Part shown: piece after piece, positions 40,057 to 53,910 of the stretch
Layout: each line of letters starts with the position of its first letter
Position numbering within the stretch: the stretch's first letter is position 1
Origin: a virus
Direction: 5' to 3' (one strand)
DNA: 54,064 bases
Virus record (IMG/VR): IMGVR_UViG_3300042309_000278
Location: 1-54,064 of that record
Position numbers and translations under genes: made by a program
The notes under the pieces: generated by a model
Database searches by the model: none
Seen by the model: only the letters and a program-made list of their open reading frames with translations
Told to the model about the DNA's origin: nothing

Positions 40057-41361
40057 TTAAATCTCAAAAACGTCAGGGATTCCTTTAATCAACGAATCCT
40101 TAGCCAACTCCAACGTGGTGTTGTATCCATCCTCCCTATTTATCTTGTGTTTCATGGAGGTGATGATGTATTTGCCACTCAAAAACATGTCTTCCCAATC
40201 CTTTTCATTGGTGTCAAGGAATCCTATTTTCGGTATCTCAAAATCGATGACATCCAACAGACGCAGTGTGGAGTTTCCATTTACGAGCAACGACAACTTA
40301 ATCGTGTTGAACTGCCGAAGTACACTTGCCCTAACAGGAAAATAATCCTGTGGAGCATCGTTGTCGATGATTGAATCTGTTCTCTTGGTTTGAACAGGCA
40401 TATAGTTCAAAAACCCAAGTTTTGCATTAGTTAGTTCTCTATCAGCAGAGGATATCAATTTATGCTCATTTAAGTGATATGTTCTGTCAAAAGAGTTGTG
40501 GTAATCATATTCGTAATACGACATCTTTTTAGTAGTGATGTCGTGAGTCATAAGATATCCCGAATACATCCCCGTCTTATATTCCATCAATCTATCAAAA
40601 TACGAAGACACATTGTAATCTTGTACTTTTTCAAGATATCGATTTACGTTGGAGGTGTTTACAGAATTGTTAGGCTCGTAACGATACGTCATTACTGGCG
40701 GTAAAATAGACCTACCAACTATGTCTGCAAAATGAAACCCATCAACGTCCTCATAGAAGACAAAGCATGATGGACCTCTACCATTTGACGGACCTGGAGT
40801 AAAGGCTCTCTTCGCTAACCAGTTGATTGAATTGATTGGTGTCCAGTATGGAAATATAAACTGAAAAGACTTGTTGTTTGTTTCATCTATACTGATACCG
40901 ATAGAACCTTTGAAGTTTTCATCAAATATTTCTTTGGCTATTTTACCTATCGATCCTTTTTTAGAACACGATATCTTTCTCTTGTTATTATCATATTGAA
41001 CAACACTGATAAACTTCATTTTGCACGTTTCAGACTTCTCGTTGGTGGTTCTTGATTTGCCGAAAATGGCAAAAATCCTGGCAACTATGTCAACAGTATC
41101 TTTTGCACCTTTTGTTCGATATGAAATTTCAATTATTTCATTCCCAACAAGTGGAATAGTTTCAGAGTAGTTTAGGGTATCAACTATCGTCAACTCACCA
41201 ATCATTTTGGTATCAAAGATGGTTTCGTAAATAACAACCTCAACAAACTGCGGCAGCAAGTTTATAGGGTCGCCACCTTTAGTAGATGTGATCTGTAACT
41301 TGAGTATCTCAAAGTCATTTTGCTTTATATAAGCATTTTCTTCTTTTGCGATATTAGGCAT
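40057..41361 (-). CDS. Baseplate hub protein, gp27-like
   Basis: A 434-residue protein (T4 gp27 is 391) lying between gp53 and gp5. The layout fits the gp27/gpD hub fold: an N-terminal tube-like domain (FVEVVIYETIFDTKMIGELT, PLVGNEIIEISYRTKG), INWLAKRAFTP, the segment SCFVFYEDVDGFHFADIVGR that matches the typical KFVFVWQDIMGV-type strand of gp27, and a second tube-like half ending with SGKYIITSMKHKINREDGYN. Three copies would form the adaptor between the tube and the gp5 spike. The start overlaps gp53 by 8 bases. Similarity is structural rather than strong in sequence, so the gene number is left out. Confidence 0.85.
   Translation of the reverse strand: MPNIAKEENAYIKQNDFEILKLQITSTKGGDPINLLPQFVEVVIYETIFDTKMIGELTIVDTLNYSETIPLVGNEIIEISYRTKGAKDTVDIVARIFAIFGKSRTTNEKSETCKMKFISVVQYDNNKRKISCSKKGSIGKIAKEIFDENFKGSIGISIDETNNKSFQFIFPYWTPINSINWLAKRAFTPGPSNGRGPSCFVFYEDVDGFHFADIVGRSILPPVMTYRYEPNNSVNTSNVNRYLEKVQDYNVSSYFDRLMEYKTGMYSGYLMTHDITTKKMSYYEYDYHNSFDRTYHLNEHKLISSADRELTNAKLGFLNYMPVQTKRTDSIIDNDAPQDYFPVRASVLRQFNTIKLSLLVNGNSTLRLLDVIDFEIPKIGFLDTNEKDWEDMFLSGKYIITSMKHKINREDGYNTTLELAKDSLIKGIPDVFEI
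40137..40144 (-). promoter_or_regulatory. Candidate late promoter inside the hub gene
   Basis: Minus-strand GATAAATA, followed closely by GGGAGGATG, lies near the 3' end of the hub gene, about 105 bases before the 46-aa gene and gp5. It is identical to the candidates at 24734 and 37337. It may be chance within coding sequence. Confidence 0.25.
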
Positions 41362-42223
41362 TTCTCAAAAAGTTCTCCACGTCTCTGTTTACATCTCTGA
41401 GATATCTACCATCAACAAGAACTATATTTCGCTTCTCATCATTTTGTGATATCTCGTAGTCTCTATTTGTAACAAGTTCATTGGCATAGTCTTCCAAGAC
41501 GTAACGTCCAAGTGGGGTTGCCCCGAAAGTAAACCCAAAACTTGAGGTGGACAAAAACTCACCATGAAGAGATGATGGAACTCTTGGATCAAGTATTTCA
41601 CCATCCGAGTTTTCAAAGTGGTGTGCTGCATATGGTGACTCTATCACTTTTCCTATTCTGGCAACGTAATAAGTTGTAACACCCAACGCATTGGTGTTTG
41701 CACCAGCAATGTAGTCTCCTTCAGCGGGAATCCACGCGGTCTTCTGTGTGAAGTCCATCACCAAACGACAATACTGAGGATCGTATTCTACGACTCTTGC
41801 ATTCATCAAGGAACTTTGAATAGATGGCTGTAGGCTTGCATTGGTTTGCGTGGTTGCATAGACAATGTCATTCGTTCTAAAAGAACCTTCAAAGGCTTTT
41901 GTTCCACCGACATCGGTGAGAAACAACGTGTAGCCGGGATATTTTTCGTTGACGTAGTTATCCAAAGAATTTGATGATAAAACCCAATCGTAGTATGGAT
42001 TGATTAGATTATTAAGACTCATCACCACCCAATTCATATTGGAGTCTTTGTAGACACGATCTGCCAAAACTTCTAAACGATCTGTGTCGTTTATAGTCAC
42101 ATTGATTGGGTATGCCCCCTCATCAATTACGGTTTGTTCTACCTTAAAACGAACCGTGATGTCGGACATCTCACGATAGCCATATGGAGTGATGTAGTTT
42201 ACTCTTGGTAGTTTATCGTACAT
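41354..42223 (-). CDS. 53: Baseplate wedge protein, gp53-like
   Basis: A 289-residue protein. The first 110 residues carry the gp53 pattern: KLPRVNYITPYGYREMSDIT, RLEVLADRVYKDSNMNWVVM and SLNNLINPYYDWVLSSNSLD, then YVNEKYPGYTLFL. In T4 the matching blocks are PEELANAIYGNPQLYWVLLM and NYDPYYGWI. The middle and end are longer than in T4 gp53 (196) and include DYANELVTNRDYEISQNDEK. gp53 clamps neighbouring wedges around the hub. It overlaps the hub gene and lies one base from the gp48 stop. Confidence 0.92.
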   Translation of the reverse strand: MYDKLPRVNYITPYGYREMSDITVRFKVEQTVIDEGAYPINVTINDTDRLEVLADRVYKDSNMNWVVMSLNNLINPYYDWVLSSNSLDNYVNEKYPGYTLFLTDVGGTKAFEGSFRTNDIVYATTQTNASLQPSIQSSLMNARVVEYDPQYCRLVMDFTQKTAWIPAEGDYIAGANTNALGVTTYYVARIGKVIESPYAAHHFENSDGEILDPRVPSSLHGEFLSTSSFGFTFGATPLGRYVLEDYANELVTNRDYEISQNDEKRNIVLVDGRYLRDVNRDVENFLRNA

Positions 42224-42224
42224 T

Positions 42225-43763
42225 TTAGTATCCGTGTACTATGTGTTCGTTTGTCAACTGTTCCATTTCTTGGAATCCAAGTTCAAGACGAATGAATGCT
42301 GGCTTTGAATCGGTGAAGGTCTTAAAATCACCAGCAGCAGCATAATCCACATTTATTGATTGGAGTGCGAGTCTTGGTAGTTTTGGTAGGTTGTCGTTTA
42401 TCACAATCATCCCGCTTGGTTCTTCGATTGTAAAAAACGACATCTCAAACTCCGCTGGAAATGTGAAGAAGTGTCCACCACCACCCTGAAGACCAGGATA
42501 AGCATGATATCGAAGCATTCGTATGATATTAAGAACCGTCTCCGCTTCCTTTTCATTTCGTGGGGCGAAATCGAAGGTGAAGTTGTGGCTACGAGTTCCG
42601 ACATCACGGAACATCATTTCCCTTCTAGGATTCTGAACTGTTCTTTGTTGTGCTGCTCGTATAGCACCCGCATTGACTTCCTGTAAATTCTCACCAACAC
42701 CAAAAGGTATTTTTCCTGCTATAGAACTAATTGCATCAGAAATTCCTTTTCGCCCAACTTTTTCAATCGCAGCAGATACGGCTCCTCTTTTTCCAGTTAG
42801 TGCATCTAACACCATTTTAGAAGTTCCCATCTCTTCTTCGGAATATATCAACTGATCATTTATAGAAAACTTTTGTGGCATGTAAAGGCATATGGTGTCT
42901 TTAGACTTCACATTTGCGTTATTGAAACGTCGGTTTGCCAAAAGTATATTTTGTTCTTCGCGCGGGCGATTGACTGCTCTACCCGAAGCACCTCTACGAT
43001 TATAGTTTCTTGGATTTTTGTTTGCTTCTGCAAGGTTGTCTCTGAGAGATGCTTCCCCATAACTAGCAACAAATTTCGTGGTGTTCAGTAAGCCTTCTGT
43101 TACAAAATTCCATGTTGACTCTATTATTCCAGCGTCACCAGCACCTTGAATAACTCTATCATTTGAACCTATGTTTTCATCCGATGTTAATCCTAAAGAT
43201 CTTAAACCTTCTGATGAGAAAATTGCTTTGGAGTACCTATCTGCTTGTGCTTGTGAGTAGCCAGCCTGAATGAGAGTATTATACGTTGCTGTCTCATTAT
43301 CGCCAATCAACCAGCCCTGTCTAGCCTCACCCGCAGACTGATTTCCGCCTTTAGCCAAAATGGAACTTGTTACTTGATTGTATTCTCTGGTTGAGAGACG
43401 AACTTCATCGGATGTTCCTTGATAAATATTAAGTGTGATGAAGTGTCTAAATCTTCGATTCTTACCCAACTCTTGTGGGTATACGAGAAATGATGGGATT
43501 CCAAGTATTGCGTTTTGTTGGTCTGGATCTATTTGAATGCGACCATTTTCGTCGGCTCCACCAAACTCAGAACCCATGTTTCCTTGTGATGATGTTGCAT
43601 TGATGAGTTCTTCTAATGATCGATCACCAGGACGGTAATATGATGTCTTTTCTTTGGAGCGCGAGTTACCACCAGCCGCACCGAGTATGGGATACTCAAG
43701 TTGGTTTGGAATCGTTTGATTTTCTGTGTAATATAACTTCTCTATGTTCTTTCGTTCAGGCAT
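42225..43763 (-). CDS. 48: Tail tube cap on baseplate, gp48-like
   Basis: A 512-residue protein (T4 gp48 is 364). The C-terminal half holds the recognisable gp48/gp54-type tube fold: NPRREMMFRDVGTRSHNFTF, DFAPRNEKEAETVLNIIRML, RYHAYPGLQGGGGHFFTFPA and FKTFTDSKPAFIRLELGFQE. The N-terminal 250 residues are extra and hydrophilic (NKNPRNYNRRGASGRAVNRP) and include a mostly helical stretch. gp48 and gp54 form the first rings on the hub from which the tube grows. No good ribosome binding site is visible, because the ATG abuts the divergent gp4 start; its leader lies inside gp4. Confidence 0.93.
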   Translation of the reverse strand: MPERKNIEKLYYTENQTIPNQLEYPILGAAGGNSRSKEKTSYYRPGDRSLEELINATSSQGNMGSEFGGADENGRIQIDPDQQNAILGIPSFLVYPQELGKNRRFRHFITLNIYQGTSDEVRLSTREYNQVTSSILAKGGNQSAGEARQGWLIGDNETATYNTLIQAGYSQAQADRYSKAIFSSEGLRSLGLTSDENIGSNDRVIQGAGDAGIIESTWNFVTEGLLNTTKFVASYGEASLRDNLAEANKNPRNYNRRGASGRAVNRPREEQNILLANRRFNNANVKSKDTICLYMPQKFSINDQLIYSEEEMGTSKMVLDALTGKRGAVSAAIEKVGRKGISDAISSIAGKIPFGVGENLQEVNAGAIRAAQQRTVQNPRREMMFRDVGTRSHNFTFDFAPRNEKEAETVLNIIRMLRYHAYPGLQGGGGHFFTFPAEFEMSFFTIEEPSGMIVINDNLPKLPRLALQSINVDYAAAGDFKTFTDSKPAFIRLELGFQEMEQLTNEHIVHGY

Positions 43764-44908: not shown

Positions 44909-45847
44909 ATGACGCAGTTTCAAGGAACCAACAACCCCAACCCACTATACGTTCCACCCGATCTAGCAGCAAAAAGCGCACAACAGGCTCTAGAAGATTT
45001 GGGTCTTCGTGGTTCTTCTATTCAAGACTCAAATCCTATCACAAACTCAATCGAATCGCAGATTGCCCAAACCAACGCTAGAATCGAAAAGTTTTACGAC
45101 GATCTCATCAATGAAACTGGTGGTATGAAATACCGCGATCCGCTGACGAGTAATATCTCGCGACAGATGGCACATATTGCGGATATGAACTTTTACTCAA
45201 GACCAACGAGGTTCTATTTTGAAATCGAAGGTCTTGGCTGGGCGCAAAACGAAAGACTTGTTCGCAATTGTCAAAACACAGTAATGCCTGGTCGTGCATT
45301 GCAAACACAGCCACTAAAAATCTACGGACCACCTGTAGAGTATGCATATGAAGCAAACTATGCAAATGAGTTGCAAATGACATTTCGCGTAGGCGAAGAT
45401 CTATTCGAACGAGATTTCTTCGAAGGTTGGATGGGATCTGTGTATTCGCCAATGACAGGCGATCTTCTCTACCCAGACACTTACATGACAAACATGCGAA
45501 TCTACCAACTCGACCGAAGAGATCTCAAAGTCTACTGCACAGAACTATACAATGTGTTCTGCAAGAACATATCTGACATAGAACTGTCAACTGATGCAAC
45601 GGATCAAATCACGACGATAAACGTCACTCTTGCTTATTCCGAGTATCAAGTTGTTGGCAAGAGAAATTTCCCATACTATGTCAGAAAAGATCGCGGAGAA
45701 ACCGAAGAAACAACCACGATTCGATCCAAAATTCAAGATTCTATATCTCAAGCAGAAAAAGTACACCAAGTCCGTCTTGATCGTGGTGTCCAACGTGCTG
45801 GTGATATTCGAAATGAAGTTCGAGAAGCATTGAATCGAAATAATTGA
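44909..45847 (+). CDS. 54: Baseplate tail tube initiator, gp54-like
   Basis: A 312-residue protein (T4 gp54 is 320). The central tube-type fold is clear: FYSRPTRFYFEIEGLGWAQN, CQNTVMPGRALQTQPLKIYG, PPVEYAYEANYANELQMTFR and DLFERDFFEGWMGSVYSP. This is followed by YPDTYMTNMRIYQLD and ISDIELSTDATDQITTINVT, the last strands of a gp19-like tube domain. The protein forms the ring on which gp19 polymerises, and works with gp48 encoded divergently nearby. The N-terminal 90 residues and the C-terminal 40 are helical extensions. It begins 3 bases after the upstream stop. Confidence 0.92.
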   Translation: MTQFQGTNNPNPLYVPPDLAAKSAQQALEDLGLRGSSIQDSNPITNSIESQIAQTNARIEKFYDDLINETGGMKYRDPLTSNISRQMAHIADMNFYSRPTRFYFEIEGLGWAQNERLVRNCQNTVMPGRALQTQPLKIYGPPVEYAYEANYANELQMTFRVGEDLFERDFFEGWMGSVYSPMTGDLLYPDTYMTNMRIYQLDRRDLKVYCTELYNVFCKNISDIELSTDATDQITTINVTLAYSEYQVVGKRNFPYYVRKDRGETEETTTIRSKIQDSISQAEKVHQVRLDRGVQRAGDIRNEVREALNRNN

Positions 45848-45871: not shown

Positions 45872-46576
45872 ATGATGTCACTACCAACACTTGGAATACC
45901 AAAATACAGAGTAACAATACCTTCTACGAAGAAAGAAACGACATTTAGACCGTTTCTAGTCAAAGAACAGAAGGTTCTCTACATGGCTCTTGAGAGTCAA
46001 GATGATAAGCAGATACTTGATGCCATGTGCAACATCATACAATCATGCGTTGATGGTATTTCAAGCATATCAAAGATGCCAATGTTTGACATTGAATACC
46101 TGTTCACCAAAATCAGAGCAAAGTCTGTGGGTGAAATTGTCGAAGTGAAGGCTAAATGCCCTCAATGCCAAAAATCGAATGAACTTTCGATCAATTTGGA
46201 TGAGGTTGAAGTCCAATTCCCCGAATCCATATCAAACAAAATCATGATAAGCGACAAAGTCGGCATTGTCATTCGATATCCATGCATCACCGATGCTCGC
46301 TCCAATCTAAACAACATGAGCGTCGAGGAAGTTTTGCACTTTGTGGCTAATTCGATTGAGACTGTCTTCGACGAAGACAACGTATACACAAGAAAAGACT
46401 TCACCGACGAGGAAATCCAAAAGTTTGTCGAGTCCATGACGAACAATCAGTTTGAACTCATTGGAAAATTCTATACCAATCTTCCAGAAATGAAAAAGGA
46501 TGTGGAATGTCATTGCATTGGATGCCAAAATGACTTCAAAGCATCGTTTACTGGGCTACAAGATTTTTTTACATAA
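45872..46576 (+). CDS. 26: Baseplate hub assembly protein, gp26-like, ending in a slippery site
   Basis: A 234-residue protein with the pattern of the T4 baseplate hub family of gp26: MSLPTLGIPKYRVTIPSTKK, TFRPFLVKEQKVLYMALES. It has two CXXC pairs, CPQC (96-99) and CIGC (215-218), which could bind one zinc. A GGAG lies 3 bases before the first ATG and 6 before a second ATG at 45875, which may be the true start. The last codons are GAT TTT TTT ACA TAA; the seven T residues form a canonical -1 frameshift heptamer just before the stop. The next gene starts within the stop (TAATG). Place: directly before the tape measure, like gpG of lambda. Confidence 0.85.
   Translation: MMSLPTLGIPKYRVTIPSTKKETTFRPFLVKEQKVLYMALESQDDKQILDAMCNIIQSCVDGISSISKMPMFDIEYLFTKIRAKSVGEIVEVKAKCPQCQKSNELSINLDEVEVQFPESISNKIMISDKVGIVIRYPCITDARSNLNNMSVEEVLHFVANSIETVFDEDNVYTRKDFTDEEIQKFVESMTNNQFELIGKFYTNLPEMKKDVECHCIGCQNDFKASFTGLQDFFT
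46564..46570 (+). promoter_or_regulatory. Candidate programmed -1 frameshift heptamer (T TTT TTT)
   Basis: Seven T residues are phased X XXY YYZ in the gp26-like frame (GA-T TTT TTT-ACA TAA). Slipping back by one base would read TAC ATA and then continue without a stop straight into the 63-aa frame at 46576, giving a fused protein of about 298 residues. No obvious downstream stem or upstream Shine-Dalgarno stimulator was found by eye. It could instead be a plain overlap, with the downstream ATG used by reinitiation. Confidence 0.6.
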
Positions 46577-46767
46577 TGCTCTGTCACGATAGTCTTGGGA
46601 ATCTGTATAACACAAATTTTGCGTTGATGCAGCACCACAAGTATTCGCTGACAGAGTTGGAAAATATGATCCCTTGGGAAAGAGAAGTATATGTAAATAT
46701 GGTTGTGAAGTTTATAAAGGATGAAAATGAACGACTAAAGCAACAGCAGTTACAAACGAGCAGATAA
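46576..46767 (+). CDS. Small tape-measure chaperone-like ORF (T-type extension or separate protein)
   Basis: A 63-residue frame, NFALMQHHKYSLTELENMIP then WEREVYVNMVVKFIKDENER. The pattern (an aromatic-rich helix, then a MIPWEREVYV-type helix) is typical of small proteins coded just before tape measure genes and of the T part of lambda-type G/GT chaperones. In T4-like annotations the same place is often called gp51, but T4 gp51 is much longer. It overlaps the gp26-like stop (TAATG) and ends with TAA directly before the gp29 ATG. It may be made by reinitiation, or as a -1 fusion with the upstream protein, or both. Confidence 0.75.
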   Translation: MLCHDSLGNLYNTNFALMQHHKYSLTELENMIPWEREVYVNMVVKFIKDENERLKQQQLQTSR

Positions 46768-48432
46768 ATGGCACTACCAAATCCAGGTTCAGCACCACAA
46801 ACAACACCACCAATCGACAATAGCATACGAGAAGCCATTTCGACGGGTATCAAGGCTGGTTTGTTGACCACACAGAGCAGGATATTTTCTAAAGTTCCAA
46901 GAATTCTTGGTGGTGGTATTTTTGCGGAGAGAGCAGAAGAGAAGCGACGAGAACTTTATGCAAGTCAAGGTCGCGATGTCTTGACTGGTAGAAAACTCAC
47001 CAAAGAAGAGATCGAAGAACGAGAACGTCGTAAGATGTCACAAGATGCGATGGGTGAGATCAACGAAAATGTTGATCTGATTCGCATATTACTTGAAAAG
47101 AATTTTGGTAAACCATCAGCCACAGCACTTCCTGCGTTGGGATTGGCAGGAATGCCGAATATTCTTACGCCGAAGAAAGATACAAGACCTTACGAGTTAG
47201 CAGATGACTCTGGTGGAATAAATCTTGCTCAAGAAGAACAGAAGATAGAGCAGCAAAAGGCAGACAAAGAAGTACAACTTGAGGTTCAAGAAAAAGATCA
47301 TTCATTCACGGAAAAACTTTTTGAGAAGTATTTCGGTAAGTCAAACATAGACAGATCCAAAGCAGGAGCAGAAGCAAAGGCTGGTGGTGGATTACTTAGC
47401 AAACTCGCTGGTGTCATAGACACATTTGCTGATTTGAAAACCTTGGGTATCATCGGCAAAGGTAGTAGGCTTGGGAAGATCGGTAGTGCCGTGGCTCGCG
47501 GTGGAATGGGTCTTGTTAGTGGTGCAGGAAGAATGATTGGTGGTGTTGCAAGAGGAGCAGTAAATCTTGGTGTAAAAGCGGCGGGTGCTGTTACAGGTGC
47601 AGTATCGGGAGCAGCAGCAGCGGGTGGCGGATTCCTTTCCAACATATGGGGTTCTGTGAAGAACATGGGTGGAAAGATTGCAGACACAGCAGGGAAATTT
47701 AAAGGTCTTGCGGGTGGAATTTCTGGTCTTGGAAAGATGGTGATTGGTGCAATCGGTCCTGTGATCGAATCTGTACTTTCATACCAAGACATAAATTCCA
47801 TCAAAAGCGACCCATCTCTTTCCGCGCAAGAAAAGAAAGATCAGATTGGGGAGAGAATTGGAAAAGCCATCGGTTCTATACTTGGTGGTGTTGGTTCAAT
47901 GGCACTTTTAGGTCCAGTCGGACCTGTAGTTACAACTGCACTTGATGCTTTTGGAGTTGGACCTGGTGCGCTTGGAGAATTCCTTGCAGAGAAACTTGGT
48001 GGCAAAAAGATCTACGACATAGCATCTGAAATTCCTGGTTTGGGTTTCATGAAAGTCGATGAGACAGCACCCCCAACAAAAGAAACTCTACCAGCAGAAG
48101 GGCAACTACAAACAAACACCCCATTCGAATCACCAGAAGACTACAACAAGTTTGGTATGAATTCGGGAATGCAAACTCCTGCATTAACTCCAACGCAAGT
48201 AGCCACCGCAGTTCCAAACATGACACCAACTTCTGCTGCGACATTGGGCAATCTTCAAGTTGAAAGTTCTGCTTTGAAGTCTGCACCTCAAATAATGCCA
48301 CCTGTTGTTGTTCCAACAAACAATGCGGTTGTGAACAACACCAACAATGTATCTTGGATGTCATCGCTGACACCAACGAGATCGGGTGCGGATCTTGATG
48401 AGAAAGTATTCAGACTTGGTCTTGCATTCTGA
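46768..48432 (+). CDS. 29: Tail length tape measure protein, gp29-like
   Basis: A 554-residue protein (T4 gp29 is 590) in the tape measure position. Residues 1-200 are charged and helical (RKLTKEEIEERERRKMSQDA, EEQKIEQQKADKEVQLEVQE). Residues about 205-370 are a Gly/Ala-rich hydrophobic stretch with several possible membrane-spanning segments (MGLVSGAGRMIGGVARGAVN, AGAVTGAVSGAAAAGGGFLS, LLGPVGPVVTTALDAFGVGP), as usual in tape measures, which may insert into the host membrane. The last 130 residues are Thr/Pro/Asn-rich. It is released through the hub with the DNA. The ATG directly follows the stop of the small ORF. Confidence 0.88.
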   Translation: MALPNPGSAPQTTPPIDNSIREAISTGIKAGLLTTQSRIFSKVPRILGGGIFAERAEEKRRELYASQGRDVLTGRKLTKEEIEERERRKMSQDAMGEINENVDLIRILLEKNFGKPSATALPALGLAGMPNILTPKKDTRPYELADDSGGINLAQEEQKIEQQKADKEVQLEVQEKDHSFTEKLFEKYFGKSNIDRSKAGAEAKAGGGLLSKLAGVIDTFADLKTLGIIGKGSRLGKIGSAVARGGMGLVSGAGRMIGGVARGAVNLGVKAAGAVTGAVSGAAAAGGGFLSNIWGSVKNMGGKIADTAGKFKGLAGGISGLGKMVIGAIGPVIESVLSYQDINSIKSDPSLSAQEKKDQIGERIGKAIGSILGGVGSMALLGPVGPVVTTALDAFGVGPGALGEFLAEKLGGKKIYDIASEIPGLGFMKVDETAPPTKETLPAEGQLQTNTPFESPEDYNKFGMNSGMQTPALTPTQVATAVPNMTPTSAATLGNLQVESSALKSAPQIMPPVVVPTNNAVVNNTNNVSWMSSLTPTRSGADLDEKVFRLGLAF

Positions 48433-50199: not shown

Positions 50200-50274
50200 G
50201 CGCCGTGGGAGGTCTTGGCATCCTCAGTTCGATTTATAACCGAATAAGAGTTGGTTCGAATCCAACACGGCGTA
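50200..50274 (+). tRNA. tRNA, probably Ile (UAU), with irregular anticodon arm
   Basis: Acceptor GCGCCGT pairs with ACGGCGT (one G-T), D arm GAGG/CCTC with GG in the loop, and T arm GTTGG-TTCGAAT-CCAAC are all good. The anticodon arm is odd: between D arm and anticodon stem there are two bases, and the stem GTTCG/CGAAT is followed by an A-C mismatch before the 7-base loop TTTATAA. Read that way the anticodon is TAT (50235-50237). No CCA is encoded. Confidence 0.6.
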
Positions 50275-50299
50275 TTTCTCAAACAGGCTCTTCGCATAT

Positions 50300-50335
50300 G
50301 AGTCGCTGCGATGAAAGCCAACAGTTTCGCGACTC
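50300..50335 (+). promoter_or_regulatory. Leader hairpin upstream of the two-helix membrane protein
   Basis: Perfect 7-base arms GAGTCGC (50300-50306) and GCGACTC (50329-50335) enclose a 22-base loop and end three bases before the AGGAG of the gene at 50351. It could be a processing or translation control element, or the remains of a tRNA; no T run follows. Confidence 0.35.
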
Positions 50336-50350
50336 ACAGGAGATTTTGCA

Positions 50351-50674
50351 ATGTTCGGACTTACCAATAACAGCGTGTTCAAGTATGTCGGTGTTCTCTC
50401 TGCTCTCGTCTTTGTGTGGTTCACGTTCCTCTCACCAGAGAGCGCAAATGCAGCACAGAAGGCAAACTACGGTTTGATTGCCCTGTTCGCATCTCTCGCG
50501 TTGTATTACTATTCGCAGTTCAACCGTGAGCGTTCTTTCCAAGAGAACGACAATGTGTATCGTCGCATTGATGACGTTGAGCGTGAGTTCAACCTTCGCA
50601 TCAATGAAGTTGAGCGTGAAGTCAACGAATGTGTTGATAGCAAGTGCGCTGAATCGTGCAAGCGCGGTCGCTAA
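50351..50674 (+). CDS. Small membrane protein with two helices and coiled-coil tail (107 aa)
   Basis: Two hydrophobic segments (about 11-27, KYVGVLSALVFVWFTFL, and 39-55, YGLIALFASLALYYYSQF) are separated by a short polar loop. A charged coiled coil (VYRRIDDVEREFNLRINEVE) and a Cys-rich basic tail (CVDSKCAESCKRGR) follow. A good AGGAG lies 8 bases before the ATG. The form, two membrane helices and a soluble tail, is like some holins or antiholins, but no lysis gene is seen nearby and other roles at the membrane are equally possible. Confidence 0.75.
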   Translation: MFGLTNNSVFKYVGVLSALVFVWFTFLSPESANAAQKANYGLIALFASLALYYYSQFNRERSFQENDNVYRRIDDVEREFNLRINEVEREVNECVDSKCAESCKRGR

Positions 50675-50746
50675 TGATTGATGGTGTCCGTCTACCATGA
50701 GTGGCGGCAGAGGGTTCGCGCATTCTGCGAATAACGCGATTTCGTT

Positions 50747-50817
50747 GCGGGTATGATGTAGCGGCAACATGTGAGTTTTCCAAACTTTCCTCACGGGTTC
50801 GAATCCCGTTACCCGCT
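50747..50817 (+). tRNA. tRNA-Gly (UCC)
   Basis: Acceptor GCGGGTA/TACCCGC, D arm ATGT/ACAT with GG in the loop, T arm ACGGG-TTCGAAT-CCCGT. The anticodon loop TTTCCAA gives TCC; the outermost anticodon-stem pair is a T-T mismatch and the next a G-T. The GCGGG acceptor is typical of Gly tRNA. A T run follows the 3' end; no CCA is encoded. Confidence 0.85.
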
Positions 50818-50821
50818 TTTT

Positions 50822-50911
50822 GGACAGATGGCAGAGTGGTCTAATGCTGCGGTTTACTAAACCGCCGATGGTTCCAGAAATCGTCCGAGGGTTCGAATCC
50901 TTCTCTGTCCG
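50822..50911 (+). tRNA. tRNA-Ser type II, anticodon read as ACU
   Basis: Acceptor GGACAGA/TCTGTCC with G73, long variable arm (about 21 bases with CGAT/ATCG stem), T arm GAGGG-TTCGAAT-CCTTC. The anticodon stem GCGGT/ACCGC is perfect and encloses TTACTAA, so the anticodon is ACT at 50856-50858, which would read AGU. The type II shape and G73 fit serine. Confidence 0.85.
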
Positions 50912-50912
50912 T

Positions 50913-50984
50913 TGATCTGTAGCACAACGGTAGTGCATCGACCTGTTAAGTCGAGGGTTACTGGTTCGAATCCAGTCAGATCAG
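50913..50984 (+). tRNA. tRNA-Asn (GUU)
   Basis: Acceptor TGATCTG/CAGATCA, anticodon stem TCGAC/GTCGA with loop CTGTTAA (GTT), T arm ACTGG-TTCGAAT-CCAGT, D loop with GG. It begins one base after tRNA-Ser; no CCA is encoded. Confidence 0.93.
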
Positions 50985-50987
50985 TTC

Positions 50988-51068
50988 GGTTGTGTACTCA
51001 AGCGGCAACGAGGGCAGACTGTAAATCTGCTGACATAGTCTTCGGGGGTTCGAATCCCTCCGCAACCA
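50988..51068 (+). tRNA. tRNA-Tyr (GUA)
   Basis: Acceptor GGTTGTG/CGCAACC (one T-G pair), anticodon stem GCAGA/TCTGC with loop CTGTAAA (GTA), extended variable arm TGACATAGTCTTC as in bacterial type II tRNA-Tyr, T arm GGGGG-TTCGAAT-CCCTC (allowing a G-T pair), A73. No CCA is encoded. Confidence 0.92.
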
Positions 51069-51073
51069 CTCAA

Positions 51074-51145
51074 GCCACCTTAGCACAGCGGCAGTGCATC
51101 GTATTTGTAATGCGAGGGTCGTGAGTTCAAATCTCACAGGTGGCT
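51074..51145 (+). tRNA. tRNA-Thr (UGU)
   Basis: Acceptor GCCACCT/AGGTGGC, anticodon stem TCGTA/TGCGA with loop TTTGTAA (TGT), T arm GTGAG-TTCAAAT-CTCAC, D loop with GG. It ends 7 bases before the next protein gene; no CCA is encoded. Confidence 0.92.
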
Positions 51146-51152
51146 TTCTTCC

Positions 51153-51515
51153 ATGCCATGTTATGCAATCTCAATCCGTGAAGACAAGGAACACCTCCTG
51201 AGAGATGGGGGTGGTTTCTTGTTCTTCAAGAAAAAGAATCTCGCAATTCAAATGTGCGATTCGATGAATGCACTACGGAAATCTATGAAGATTGACCAAG
51301 TGTATTCAATCTGCAAGATAGATGAGAAAGACTGGAAAGGTTTTCCAGTGATCTACGATCAGGAGTACGAAGATGACGCTACCAAGCGAGATGTTTCATG
51401 CTATACGAAACGCACGGCACTTCATGCTGGCGTTGATGGATCCGAAGGAAACTCCAAAGGTTCCAAGAGAAATAAGAAAGCGAGCGAGGGATCGACTCAA
51501 GCACTTCCCTTCTGA
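51153..51515 (+). CDS. Unknown protein whose 3' end overlaps the next gene (120 aa)
   Basis: Begins MPCYAISIREDKEHLLRDGG eight bases after tRNA-Thr, with no clear ribosome binding site. Residues 1-75 look like a real small fold (FLFFKKKNLAIQMCDSMNAL, YSICKIDEKDWKGFPVIYDQ). The last 47 residues (Ser/Lys/Gly-rich, GSEGNSKGSKRNKKASEGST) overlap the gene at 51373 in another frame for 143 bases and look like a by-product of that gene. So either the gene has an unusual overlapping tail, or a mutation removed an earlier stop. Function unknown. Confidence 0.6.
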   Translation: MPCYAISIREDKEHLLRDGGGFLFFKKKNLAIQMCDSMNALRKSMKIDQVYSICKIDEKDWKGFPVIYDQEYEDDATKRDVSCYTKRTALHAGVDGSEGNSKGSKRNKKASEGSTQALPF

Positions 51516-51696
51516 ATACGAAATTACAGAATTGGAAAAGATGTATTCATTCAAAGACAAGGATCCAAACATTCTTCTCAATGAGTGCATGAAGCGTCTT
51601 GACTCCATTCGCGGAGAACTTACCATAGTGAACAAGAAGGTTGGTGATGTCGGCAACGGCATCGTTGAAGTAATTCAAAACTCAAGGAGTCAATGA
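51373..51696 (+). CDS. Small conserved protein, MTLP...PKETPKVPREIRKRAR type (107 aa)
   Basis: The N-terminal 50 residues (MTLPSEMFHAIRNARHFMLA, then LMDPKETPKVPREIRKRARD, then HFPSEYEI) match a pattern I know from small proteins of proteobacteria and their phages (BPSL0761-like, if I recall the family name correctly), of unknown function. The C-terminal half is a helical extension (LNECMKRLDSIRGELTIVNK) not usual for that family. AGGAG lies 7 bases before the ATG. It overlaps the upstream frame by 143 bases and is one base from the next start. Confidence 0.78.
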   Translation: MTLPSEMFHAIRNARHFMLALMDPKETPKVPREIRKRARDRLKHFPSEYEITELEKMYSFKDKDPNILLNECMKRLDSIRGELTIVNKKVGDVGNGIVEVIQNSRSQ

Positions 51697-51697
51697 G

Positions 51698-51952
51698 ATG
51701 CCAAATAGTAAAGCAAAGAGTGTTGCTAGAAAGCACCGCAAGGCACGAAACCGTTGGAAGAGCAAGAATCGTGAGAGCCTCACTCATGCAAAGGTGAAGT
51801 CTCCACCAAAGAAGAAGCAATCTGTTTTTGAGCGAGCGAAAACATCCCCTCTGGCGGGGGCTTCCCCGTCAGCCGTATCTAACCCGCCAGAGGGGACTCC
51901 TCGCACCGCATCAACGATGTTGTTCACTGAACTCAAAGCAAAGGGTGGATGA
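51698..51952 (+). CDS. Small basic protein with an embedded hairpin (84 aa)
   Basis: The N-terminal 45 residues are very basic (SKAKSVARKHRKARNRWKSK, HAKVKSPPKKKQSVFERAKT), suited to nucleic acid binding. The second half is Pro/Ser/Ala/Thr-rich and covers a 13-base inverted repeat at 51846-51895, so its amino acid sequence there is probably dictated by the DNA element rather than by protein function. AAGGAG lies 9 bases upstream of the ATG; the stop overlaps the next ATG (ATGA). The original gene may have been shorter and extended by the hairpin insertion. Confidence 0.65.
   Translation: MPNSKAKSVARKHRKARNRWKSKNRESLTHAKVKSPPKKKQSVFERAKTSPLAGASPSAVSNPPEGTPRTASTMLFTELKAKGG
51841..51895 (-). 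terminator. Long hairpin inside a plus-strand gene, terminator-like for the minus strand
   Basis: CCCCTCTGGCGGG (51846-51858) and CCCGCCAGAGGGG (51883-51895) form a perfect 13-base stem with a 24-base loop that holds a smaller GGCT/AGCC stem. On the minus strand the stem is followed by ATGTTTTCG. It would stop transcription moving left; for the plus strand no T run follows. Confidence 0.5.
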
Positions 51953-52218
51953 AAATGGAAAAAACACAAATTGTCGAATCACTCCACCAAGGAGTCTGTG
52001 AAGTGGTGTTTACCAAGGCAGACGGCACGGAGCGTACACTTCGATGTACGCGATCTGCAAGCATTGCACCAATCACCAACACTAAAACCCTCCTCAATGA
52101 GGAGGGTGGTGGTCCAGATGTGATTCCTGTGTGGGACATGGATTCTGCACAATGGCGATCATTCAATATGAATACCATCAAGTCGTTCCGCAAGATTGGG
52201 ACTACTTTGAATGGCTGA
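51949..52218 (+). CDS. Small SH3-like beta-barrel phage protein (89 aa)
   Basis: The sequence resembles a small protein common in T4-like and other large phages and described as SH3 beta-barrel fold-containing: VCEVVFTKADGTERTLRCTR, then VIPVWDMDSAQWRSFNMNTI, then SFRKIG. In that family a short beta-barrel is built from a strand with FTK-DG-R and the closing VWD---WRSF-----I block; its function is not established. The first ATG overlaps the upstream stop; a second ATG at 51955 has better spacing from GGTGG. The region 52087-52107, coding for LLNEEGG, is a perfect hairpin. Confidence 0.82.
   Translation: MKMEKTQIVESLHQGVCEVVFTKADGTERTLRCTRSASIAPITNTKTLLNEEGGGPDVIPVWDMDSAQWRSFNMNTIKSFRKIGTTLNG
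52083..52107 (-). terminator. Hairpin inside a plus-strand gene, intrinsic terminator on the minus strand
   Basis: ACCCTCCTC (52087-52095) and GAGGAGGGT (52099-52107) form a perfect 9-base stem with the three-base loop AAT. On the minus strand the stem is followed by TTTTAGT, the form of a rho-independent terminator, while the plus strand continues GGTGG without T residues. Confidence 0.5.
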
Positions 52219-52227
52219 GTGAAAGTC

Positions 52228-52300
52228 GCTTCGGTGGCAGACAAGCAATGCATCGGTCTTTTAAACCGTACCCATGCGGGGGCAGTACCCGCCCGAAGCA
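52228..52300 (+). tRNA. tRNA-Lys-like (UUU) with divergent D and T loops
   Basis: Acceptor GCTTCGG/CCGAAGC is perfect, D stem GCA/TGC, anticodon stem TCGGT/ACCGT (one outer mismatch) with loop CTTTTAA (TTT), T stem GCGGG/CCCGC, A73. But the T loop is GGCAGTA instead of TTCGAAT and the D loop GACAAGCAA lacks GG, so the usual D-loop/T-loop contact cannot form. It may be a decayed or an unusual functional tRNA. Confidence 0.55.
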
Positions 52301-52335
52301 TTTCTGATGTATACATATTAGCGGAGGATGCTAAT

Positions 52336-52710
52336 ATGTGCGAATGCAGATACTGTGGTAAAGACATGGGAGAAAACCCCAACAGATCTAAAGGTGACAG
52401 AAGAACTCAATGCAATTCTTGTGCAGTGAGCAAGCGTAGATGGAAAGTTAAGTATGATCTGGTGACTGCAAAGGGAGGAAAGTGTTCTAGATGTGGGTGG
52501 GACAAACATCCAGCGGCATTGCAGTTTCATCATACAGATCCATCCAGTAAGGAGTTTAATCTGAATGCAAATGTTCTATTGCGTGAAAAAGGCAACTATG
52601 AGGAAGAACTTGCAAAGTGCATTCTTCTCTGTGCAAATTGTCATGCAATAGAGCATCAGAACGGTGACAGGTTTCTTGTTGAGTTGGGATGGAAATCTAC
52701 GGCGCGGTAG
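52336..52710 (+). CDS. HNH endonuclease lodged between two tRNA genes
   Basis: A 124-residue HNH nuclease starting at ATG 52336, with GGAGG 8 bases upstream. Residues 2-30 hold Cys pairs (CECRYC, CNSC) like a zinc ribbon. The nuclease has KCSRCGWDKHP (C50, C53), LQFHHTDPSSKEF (H65, H66) and CILLCANCHAIEH (C99, C102, H103), the zinc-finger HNH layout of many free-standing homing enzymes. The stop codon TAG is inside the following tRNA-Leu (10-base overlap). It may cut tRNA-containing sites of related phages lacking it and so spread, together with flanking tRNAs. Longer frames upstream only read through the tRNA-Lys. Confidence 0.9.
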   Translation: MCECRYCGKDMGENPNRSKGDRRTQCNSCAVSKRRWKVKYDLVTAKGGKCSRCGWDKHPAALQFHHTDPSSKEFNLNANVLLREKGNYEEELAKCILLCANCHAIEHQNGDRFLVELGWKSTAR

Positions 52711-52773
52711 ACCAACGGCAGAGTCAGTTGACTTAAAATCAACACAGTGTGGGTTCGAATCCCACCCGTGCTA
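52701..52773 (+). tRNA. tRNA with UAA anticodon (Leu) but short variable loop
   Basis: Acceptor GGCGCGG/CCGTGCT (two G-T pairs), T8 A9, D stem GAC/GTC with GG in the loop, anticodon stem GTTGA/TCAAC with loop CTTAAAA (TAA), variable loop of only five bases, T arm GTGGG-TTCGAAT-CCCAC, A73. Leu tRNAs normally have a long variable arm. The 5' end overlaps the HNH stop codon. Confidence 0.8.
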
Positions 52774-53084: not shown

Positions 53085-53287
53085 TGAAACCAAAGATTAG
53101 ACATACTCTTTATGTTGTGACTATAACAATTCTCACAACAACACTTTTTATGGTGAAGTGTCAAGGGAATTTGTGGGCGCATCAGATTCGTCCGATTGCC
53201 ACAGAATCCGAAAAAGTGCGTCCACCAGGAGAGGGTGTCAAACTTGGAACAGGAAAGAATATGCATTACAGGATGAACACACAATGA
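53084..53287 (+). CDS. Small secreted or membrane-anchored peptide (67 aa)
   Basis: The start is basic (MKPKIRHTL), followed by a hydrophobic segment of about 14 residues (YVVTITILTTTLFMV) and then KCQGNLWAHQIRPIATESEK and a polar end. It could be a signal anchor, or a signal peptide cleaved before a Cys, although the sequence before the Cys (FMVK) is a poor lipobox. A strong AAGGAG is present, and the stop overlaps the next start (ATGA), so it is co-translated with the PEP-CTERM-like protein. Function unknown. Confidence 0.7.
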   Translation: MKPKIRHTLYVVTITILTTTLFMVKCQGNLWAHQIRPIATESEKVRPPGEGVKLGTGKNMHYRMNTQ

Positions 53288-53910
53288 AGACACTAATCGC
53301 AACAGCATTTATCACAACGACAGCACACGGAACTGGGACTCTCTGCACCTTTGAGAACCTTCCTGCTCCAACAACTCCTAGTATGAGTTCCGCTACCACG
53401 GGATTCTATTGGGATTACCTCTCCTCATACGAGGGATTCCACTTCACAAGTTCATTCTCCCAAGGAAACTTTCAATGGGGATACTACGATCTCGTTGGTG
53501 GTGGGGGATACGCAGGATACGATGAGGGAATCATCGGGGATCGTGCTTTGTTTACCCCGTGGGGTTCTGAGCAGAACAAGAACTACCGCATTCGTCGTGA
53601 TGATCTTTGGATTCTCAACAGCATTGAAGTCACATCAGTTTGGAATTCGACCGCAGTAGTTATAGAGGGATACCGATACGGAGAGGGTGTGTTTACTTAT
53701 ACTACACAACTCACAGCAGCACAGCGGGTAAAACTAAACATCTCCTCTGGATATCCTGGTCCGCTTAACAACATCACAGAGATCAAAATCTACACCAACA
53801 CATTTAGTTCCCATCTCGCTATCGATAATCTCAACTACACGGTGGTTCCTGCACCATCGGCACTTGCCCTGCTTGCGATTGTTGGTGCGGTTGGAAGGCG
53901 GCGACGATGA
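53284..53910 (+). CDS. Secreted protein with a PEP-CTERM-like C-terminal sorting signal (208 aa)
   Basis: I take ATG 53284 as the start because it overlaps the preceding stop and gives a signal-peptide-like opening (MKTLIATAFITTTAHGTGTL). The body is beta-rich with a CTFENLPAP start and an F/Y/G-rich middle (YEGFHFTSSFSQGNFQWGYY, AGYDEGIIGDRALFTPWG), as in many PEP-CTERM domain proteins. The end is VVPAPSALALLAIVGAVGRRRR-like: a V-P-A-P-S motif, a hydrophobic helix, then four Arg, the three-part signal that exosortases process in bacteria. A phage copy would be exported and sorted by the host system. It may be a captured host gene. Confidence 0.82.
   Translation: MKTLIATAFITTTAHGTGTLCTFENLPAPTTPSMSSATTGFYWDYLSSYEGFHFTSSFSQGNFQWGYYDLVGGGGYAGYDEGIIGDRALFTPWGSEQNKNYRIRRDDLWILNSIEVTSVWNSTAVVIEGYRYGEGVFTYTTQLTAAQRVKLNISSGYPGPLNNITEIKIYTNTFSSHLAIDNLNYTVVPAPSALALLAIVGAVGRRRR

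Follow-up and report, generated by a model that had tools for sequence, protein, structure and literature searches.

In phage lambda, the tail chaperone gene yields a short protein, gpG, and a longer -1 frameshift form, gpGT, and the pair binds the tape measure and the tube (PMC5009743). A 2016 review describes this G-T frameshifting as 'widely conserved ... except T4'. For T4 itself, the hub assembly chaperones are listed as including gp26 and gp51; the latter is required for assembly but is not part of the particle (PMC3004832). Vladimirov, Gautam and Davidson (2022, Virology 566:9-15) identified the tail chaperone genes of T4-like phages in a paper whose title favours a mechanism different from frameshifting. 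According to the summary in the PRFect paper (PMC10885494), that study has some T4-like phages encoding the short protein and the fused long one in separate genes; PMC12846349 refers to it for poly-T slip sequences within the TAC-N genes of T4-like phages. PMC12846349 also covers Vandenendeviridae and Andersonviridae, in which the short chaperone gene ends with a poly-T slip motif and the -1 frame is open.

Here, we analyze a candidate locus of this kind in an IMG/VR virus record of 54,064 bases, taken whole (the window). Like lambda gpG/gpGT, it pairs a short protein with a predicted longer -1 frameshift form, is located between a tail-tube family gene and a presumed tape measure gene, and carries a canonical X XXY YYZ site towards the end of the short gene. 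It differs from lambda in that its proteins are of the PF12322 (T4 gp26) type and larger than gpG, and in that the site, T TTT TTT, falls one codon before the stop. Vandenendeviridae and Andersonviridae are other phage families, with a GTTTTT motif in place of T TTT TTY. The earlier note knew of no such description for T4-like gp26 and its neighbour; one later paper does cite Vladimirov et al. for poly-T slip sites. Going by those citing statements, frameshifting in the T4-like group appears to have been described already, at least in part. Added here are breadth, tests based on codon choice and start codons, a contrast in gene copy number, and one further member.

A proposed tail chaperone locus in the window

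The coordinates of the locus are collected in Table 1. ORF1 and ORF2 follow a tail-tube family gene and precede a 554-residue ORF. The earlier note had ORF2 directly preceding the tape measure gene; the adjacency stands, as the 554-residue ORF adjoins ORF2, while its identity as tape measure is a call from position and size, because family profile searches returned no informative match for it. Baseplate genes resembling gp48 and gp53 (40057-43763) are encoded on the minus strand, whereas the gp26/ORF2 cluster is on the plus strand.

Table 1. Features of the chaperone locus and its surroundings in the window
Feature	Coordinates	Strand	Basis
Tail tube family protein, upstream of ORF1	44909..45847	+	phrog_45 'tail tube', E 2e-37
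ORF1, T4 gp26-like, proposed short tail assembly chaperone (TAC-N), 234 aa	45872..46576	+	PF12322, phrog_150, AlphaFold model
Weak Shine-Dalgarno-like element ACTGGGCT, upstream of slip site	46550..46557	+	anti-SD pairing
Slippery heptamer T TTT TTT, proposed -1 frameshift site	46564..46570	+	sequence; conserved in relatives
-1 frame continuation (ORF2), C-terminal part of proposed long form TAC-NC	46564..46767	+	phrog_634, conserved motif, purifying selection in first 14 codons
0-frame stop TAA of ORF1, overlapping ATG (TAATG)	46574..46576	+	sequence
ORF2, ATG-initiated version, 63 aa	46576..46767	+	sequence
RNA stem, candidate stimulator, starting 7 nt after heptamer	46578..46657 (arms 46578-46589, 46645-46657)	+	predicted folding
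554-aa ORF, candidate tape measure protein	46768..48432	+	position and size

ORF1 matches PF12322 (E 2.8e-57) and phrog_150 'baseplate hub' (E 1e-61), and ORF2 matches phrog_634 'baseplate hub assembly catalyst' (E 1.3e-27). ORF2 additionally matches the C-terminal end of phrog_150 (positions 238-280), a hint that ORF1 and ORF2 are halves of one protein in some phages. A search for a convincing Pfam match to ORF2 found none, and sequence profiles of gp26 and ORF2 detected no relative among solved structures. At the level of predicted structure, the ORF1 model is confident (pLDDT 91), and the best solved-structure match of its N-terminal domain is the HK97 tail assembly chaperone 2ob9, with Z 8.1 over 85 residues at an rmsd of 4.4; this is a remote similarity, as a Z near 8 lies at the edge of meaningful by the tool's own warning and can reflect a common arrangement. 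The runners-up are 3klu and 3fgx (YqbN, RBSTP2171). With a named tail assembly chaperone among the best PDB matches and tail genes adjoining, the model makes a credible case for ORF1 as a tail assembly chaperone. The fold of ORF2 is left untyped because the best structural match to its model alone does not exceed Z 3.1.

A conserved slippery junction

ORF1 ends GAT TTT TTT ACA TAA. As the earlier note reported, T TTT TTT is in X XXY YYZ register exactly one codon ahead of the stop, and the -1 frame is open from ORF1 into ORF2: after a slip it reads TTT TTT TAC ATA ATG CTC TGT CAC ... and stays open to the end of ORF2, giving a predicted fusion of 233 + 65 = 298 residues, the length originally claimed. 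The same note called this arrangement hard to get by chance, and the counts bear it out. The heptamer is the sole run of at least seven T's in the window, and among 41 long ORFs a single other case combines an in-register XXXYYYZ near the stop with a -1 frame open for at least 120 nt, in a minus-strand ORF of doubtful coding status.

We examined the junction in four samples of relatives: 49 retrieved with the window protein, 21 named phages plus one Desulfovibrio phage, about 75 relatives of phiM12 gp26, and 80 of pf16 gp26. A junction was counted if T TTT TT(C/T/G) stood in register and 0-8 codons ahead of the stop, and if the -1 frame remained open for at least 158 nt past the heptamer. A conserved heptamer with an open -1 frame in related phages had been proposed in advance as the supporting observation, and 215 of the 220 pooled junctions have both; a spacer between the two frames, which would have counted against the reading, occurs in none of the relatives bearing the slip site. 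After clustering at 70% protein identity, the slip site is present in 59 of 63 clusters. These clusters include marine T4-like phages infecting Synechococcus, Prochlorococcus, Pelagibacter and Methylophilales, KVP40-like phages, and phages of Sinorhizobium, Rhizobium, Agrobacterium, Stenotrophomonas, Pseudomonas, Aeromonas, Vibrio, Cronobacter and Desulfovibrio. The four clusters without it are the gp26 genes of T4 and the T4-like avDM3, and those of Salmonella phage Mutine and Vibrio phage D493, both Ackermannviridae-type phages. In IME-SM1 (L159, near 2250), five T's stand where a 99% identical phage (L158) has six, and the reading frame is broken; the missing T may be a homopolymer sequencing error and was counted neither for nor against.

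Conservation of the T run could in principle be a by-product of the protein, with Phe-Phe retained for its own sake and AT-rich codons mimicking slipperiness. Phe232-Phe233 is indeed invariant in the alignment of gp26 relatives, and T4 gp26 keeps both residues as the non-slippery TTC TTT. Because the residues do not vary, the choice of codons separates a constraint on the protein from a constraint on slipping. If amino acids and gene-specific codon usage are kept constant, a T followed by TTT is expected in 20.6 of the 59 clusters and observed in all 59, a strong contrast that carries no true probability because the clusters share ancestry. At the other Phe-Phe positions of these genes, T TTT TTY is the spelling in just 2 of 63 cases. 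By this comparison, codon choice at the junction favours slipperiness. Together with selection on the -1 frame ahead of any start codon (below), it leaves a chance origin with next to no probability.

A second conceivable source of the fusion is RNA polymerase, which might add or drop a U in the T run so that some mRNAs encode the two parts in frame. The window's seven T's are a homopolymer and speak for this reading. Most relatives, however, have six T's followed by C, a short run for polymerase slippage, and they keep it in a fixed codon register with a Shine-Dalgarno-like element upstream. These features fit slippage of paired tRNAs and make transcriptional slippage very improbable.

The upstream element is similar to that of the dnaX frameshift site, which is stimulated by a Shine-Dalgarno sequence. 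In the relatives, pairing to the 16S anti-Shine-Dalgarno sequence is strongest in stretches beginning 14-17 nt upstream of the heptamer, with a mean of -5.5 kcal/mol vs -4.4 after synonymous redraw (z -6.7). Judged by this redraw, the element is under synonymous constraint in relatives; the window's own copy is weak (-2.4 kcal/mol). Downstream, the predicted fold of 46571-46670 has an energy of -31.1 kcal/mol (z -3.7), matched by 0 of 200 shuffles. The stem arms are identical in two relatives (L004 and L007), with 0 of 24 bases and 0 of 8 third positions changed, against 33-35 of 170 bases and 24 of 57 third positions in the rest of ORF2. The stem is not preserved in a further relative (L008), and a family-wide downstream RNA structure was not found among 59 representatives (mean z -1.5 over 80 nt, with wide spread). 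A role for the predicted stem as frameshift stimulator is suggestive only.

Selection on the -1 frame and the proposed mechanism

If ORF2 were a gene of its own, ribosomes terminating on ORF1 would reinitiate at the stop-overlapping ATG to make a separate 63-residue protein, and the T run would be incidental. TAATG or TGATG is present in the window and its close relatives, and the annotations of several phages treat ORF2 as a gene in its own right. Across the family, on the other hand, the first 8 codons of the -1 frame contain no ATG in 45 of 59 clusters, and no ATG, GTG or TTG in 40; over the first 14 codons after the slip, ATG is still missing in 42. Despite these missing starts, the beginning of the frame, FFRIALSHDSL with its LSHDSL stretch, is conserved, as is the wider ORF2 motif FFxIxLxHxSL...PWERxIY, kept in 41 relatives. 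Between close pairs, synonymous changes make up 69% of the single changes in the first 14 codons of the -1 frame, vs about 22% expected without selection, and the same DNA read in the 0 frame has 130 synonymous vs 385 non-synonymous changes. On these substitution patterns, the -1 frame is under protein-level selection ahead of any start codon.

The lack of an early start codon in most clusters, combined with the conservation of the stretch, led us to reject ORF2 as a separate ORF with its own start, and the plain reinitiation model was rejected on the same ground. Reinitiation also gives no reason to preserve T TTT TTY, and T4 gp51 carries the ORF2 part fused in frame. As a full account of the junction it is very unlikely. 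In the window's own clade, the presence of TAATG means that reinitiation could additionally yield a separate 63-residue ORF2 product.

We conclude that ORF1 and ORF2 are very probably one tail assembly chaperone gene expressed at two lengths through a -1 frameshift. What we observe is the signal, its register and conservation, selection on the -1 frame, a single gene copy and a chaperone-like predicted fold; from these sequences we infer the frameshifting, its rate and its partners. Most ribosomes would halt at the TAA and release the 234-residue short form. In a minority, the two Phe tRNAs would re-pair one base back on T TTT TTT, probably aided by the upstream Shine-Dalgarno-like element and, in the window's clade, by the downstream stem, and these ribosomes would continue in the -1 frame to produce the 298-residue long form. 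If lambda gpG/gpGT is a guide, the tape measure protein would be coated by the short form, and the ORF2 residues carried by the long form would recruit tail tube or baseplate subunits. A set ratio of short to long form and binding to the tape measure in the window phage would likewise follow from the lambda analogy.

The T4 exception and Ackermannviridae-type phages

T4 gp26 matches ORF1 and T4 gp51 matches ORF1 plus ORF2, but neither of the two T4 genes retains the slip site, whereas the window has one gene with a slip site. The phrog_150 match of gp51 is full-length, including the ORF2 part, and is accompanied by a phrog_634 match; its residues 200-243 align to the ORF2 profile (E 3.5e-6). 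Based on these profile matches, gp51 is the gp26 domain and ORF2 fused in frame, and gp26 is the short form. T4 gp26 consists of the ORF1 part only and ends GLKEFFELL, with slipperiness lost at its Phe codons, while gp51 crosses the same point in one frame, reading DVFKLLVNPDEIF. Of 23 complete records, those of T4 and avDM3 contain two PF12322 genes; each of the remaining 21 phages has a single one. The window record, which may be a fragment, also has one, so the two-gene scheme of gp26 and gp51 is not found in it. The gp51 fusion, the lost slip site and the copy numbers indicate that T4's branch encodes the long and short forms in separate genes and that phages elsewhere use a single slippery gene.

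Ackermannviridae-type phages also have one gene with ORF2 in the -1 frame, and its end is less slippery (ATT TTC ATT TAA; in VAP7, GTT TTT CGC). In Ackermannviridae and similar Vibrio phages (L056, L064 and L240-L243), ORF2, sometimes unannotated, follows gp26 in the -1 frame, but no canonical heptamer is present (GAGATTTTCATTTAA). The gp26 frameshift is likely ancestral in the T4 superfamily as a whole; in T4 and its closest relatives it would have been replaced through duplication of the gene, with gp26 losing slipperiness and gp51 becoming fused in frame, and Ackermannviridae-type phages would arrive at the same -1 frame in a third way.

This distribution offers a simple account of the T4 exception: most of the superfamily has a single slippery gene, and T4 has two separate ones. 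It also makes the idea of a short/long ratio testable, through comparison of phages with two solutions to the same problem. Public records usually list the halves as separate genes or omit the second half (e.g. ACG-2014d, Cronobacter S13, Mutine), and the long chaperone is therefore missing from many genome annotations.

Two further observations concern the remainder of the window. The ORF at 53158-53910 ends VVPAPSALALLAIVGAVGRRRR, a PEP-CTERM-like sorting tail whose match to NF038120 is weak and below the cut-off; phages seldom carry such a tail, which may be a clue to the host or a sign of host DNA where the contig ends. The region at 50200-52773, made up mostly of small ORFs, contains seven tRNA genes (Ile, Gly, Ser, Asn, Tyr, Thr and Leu).
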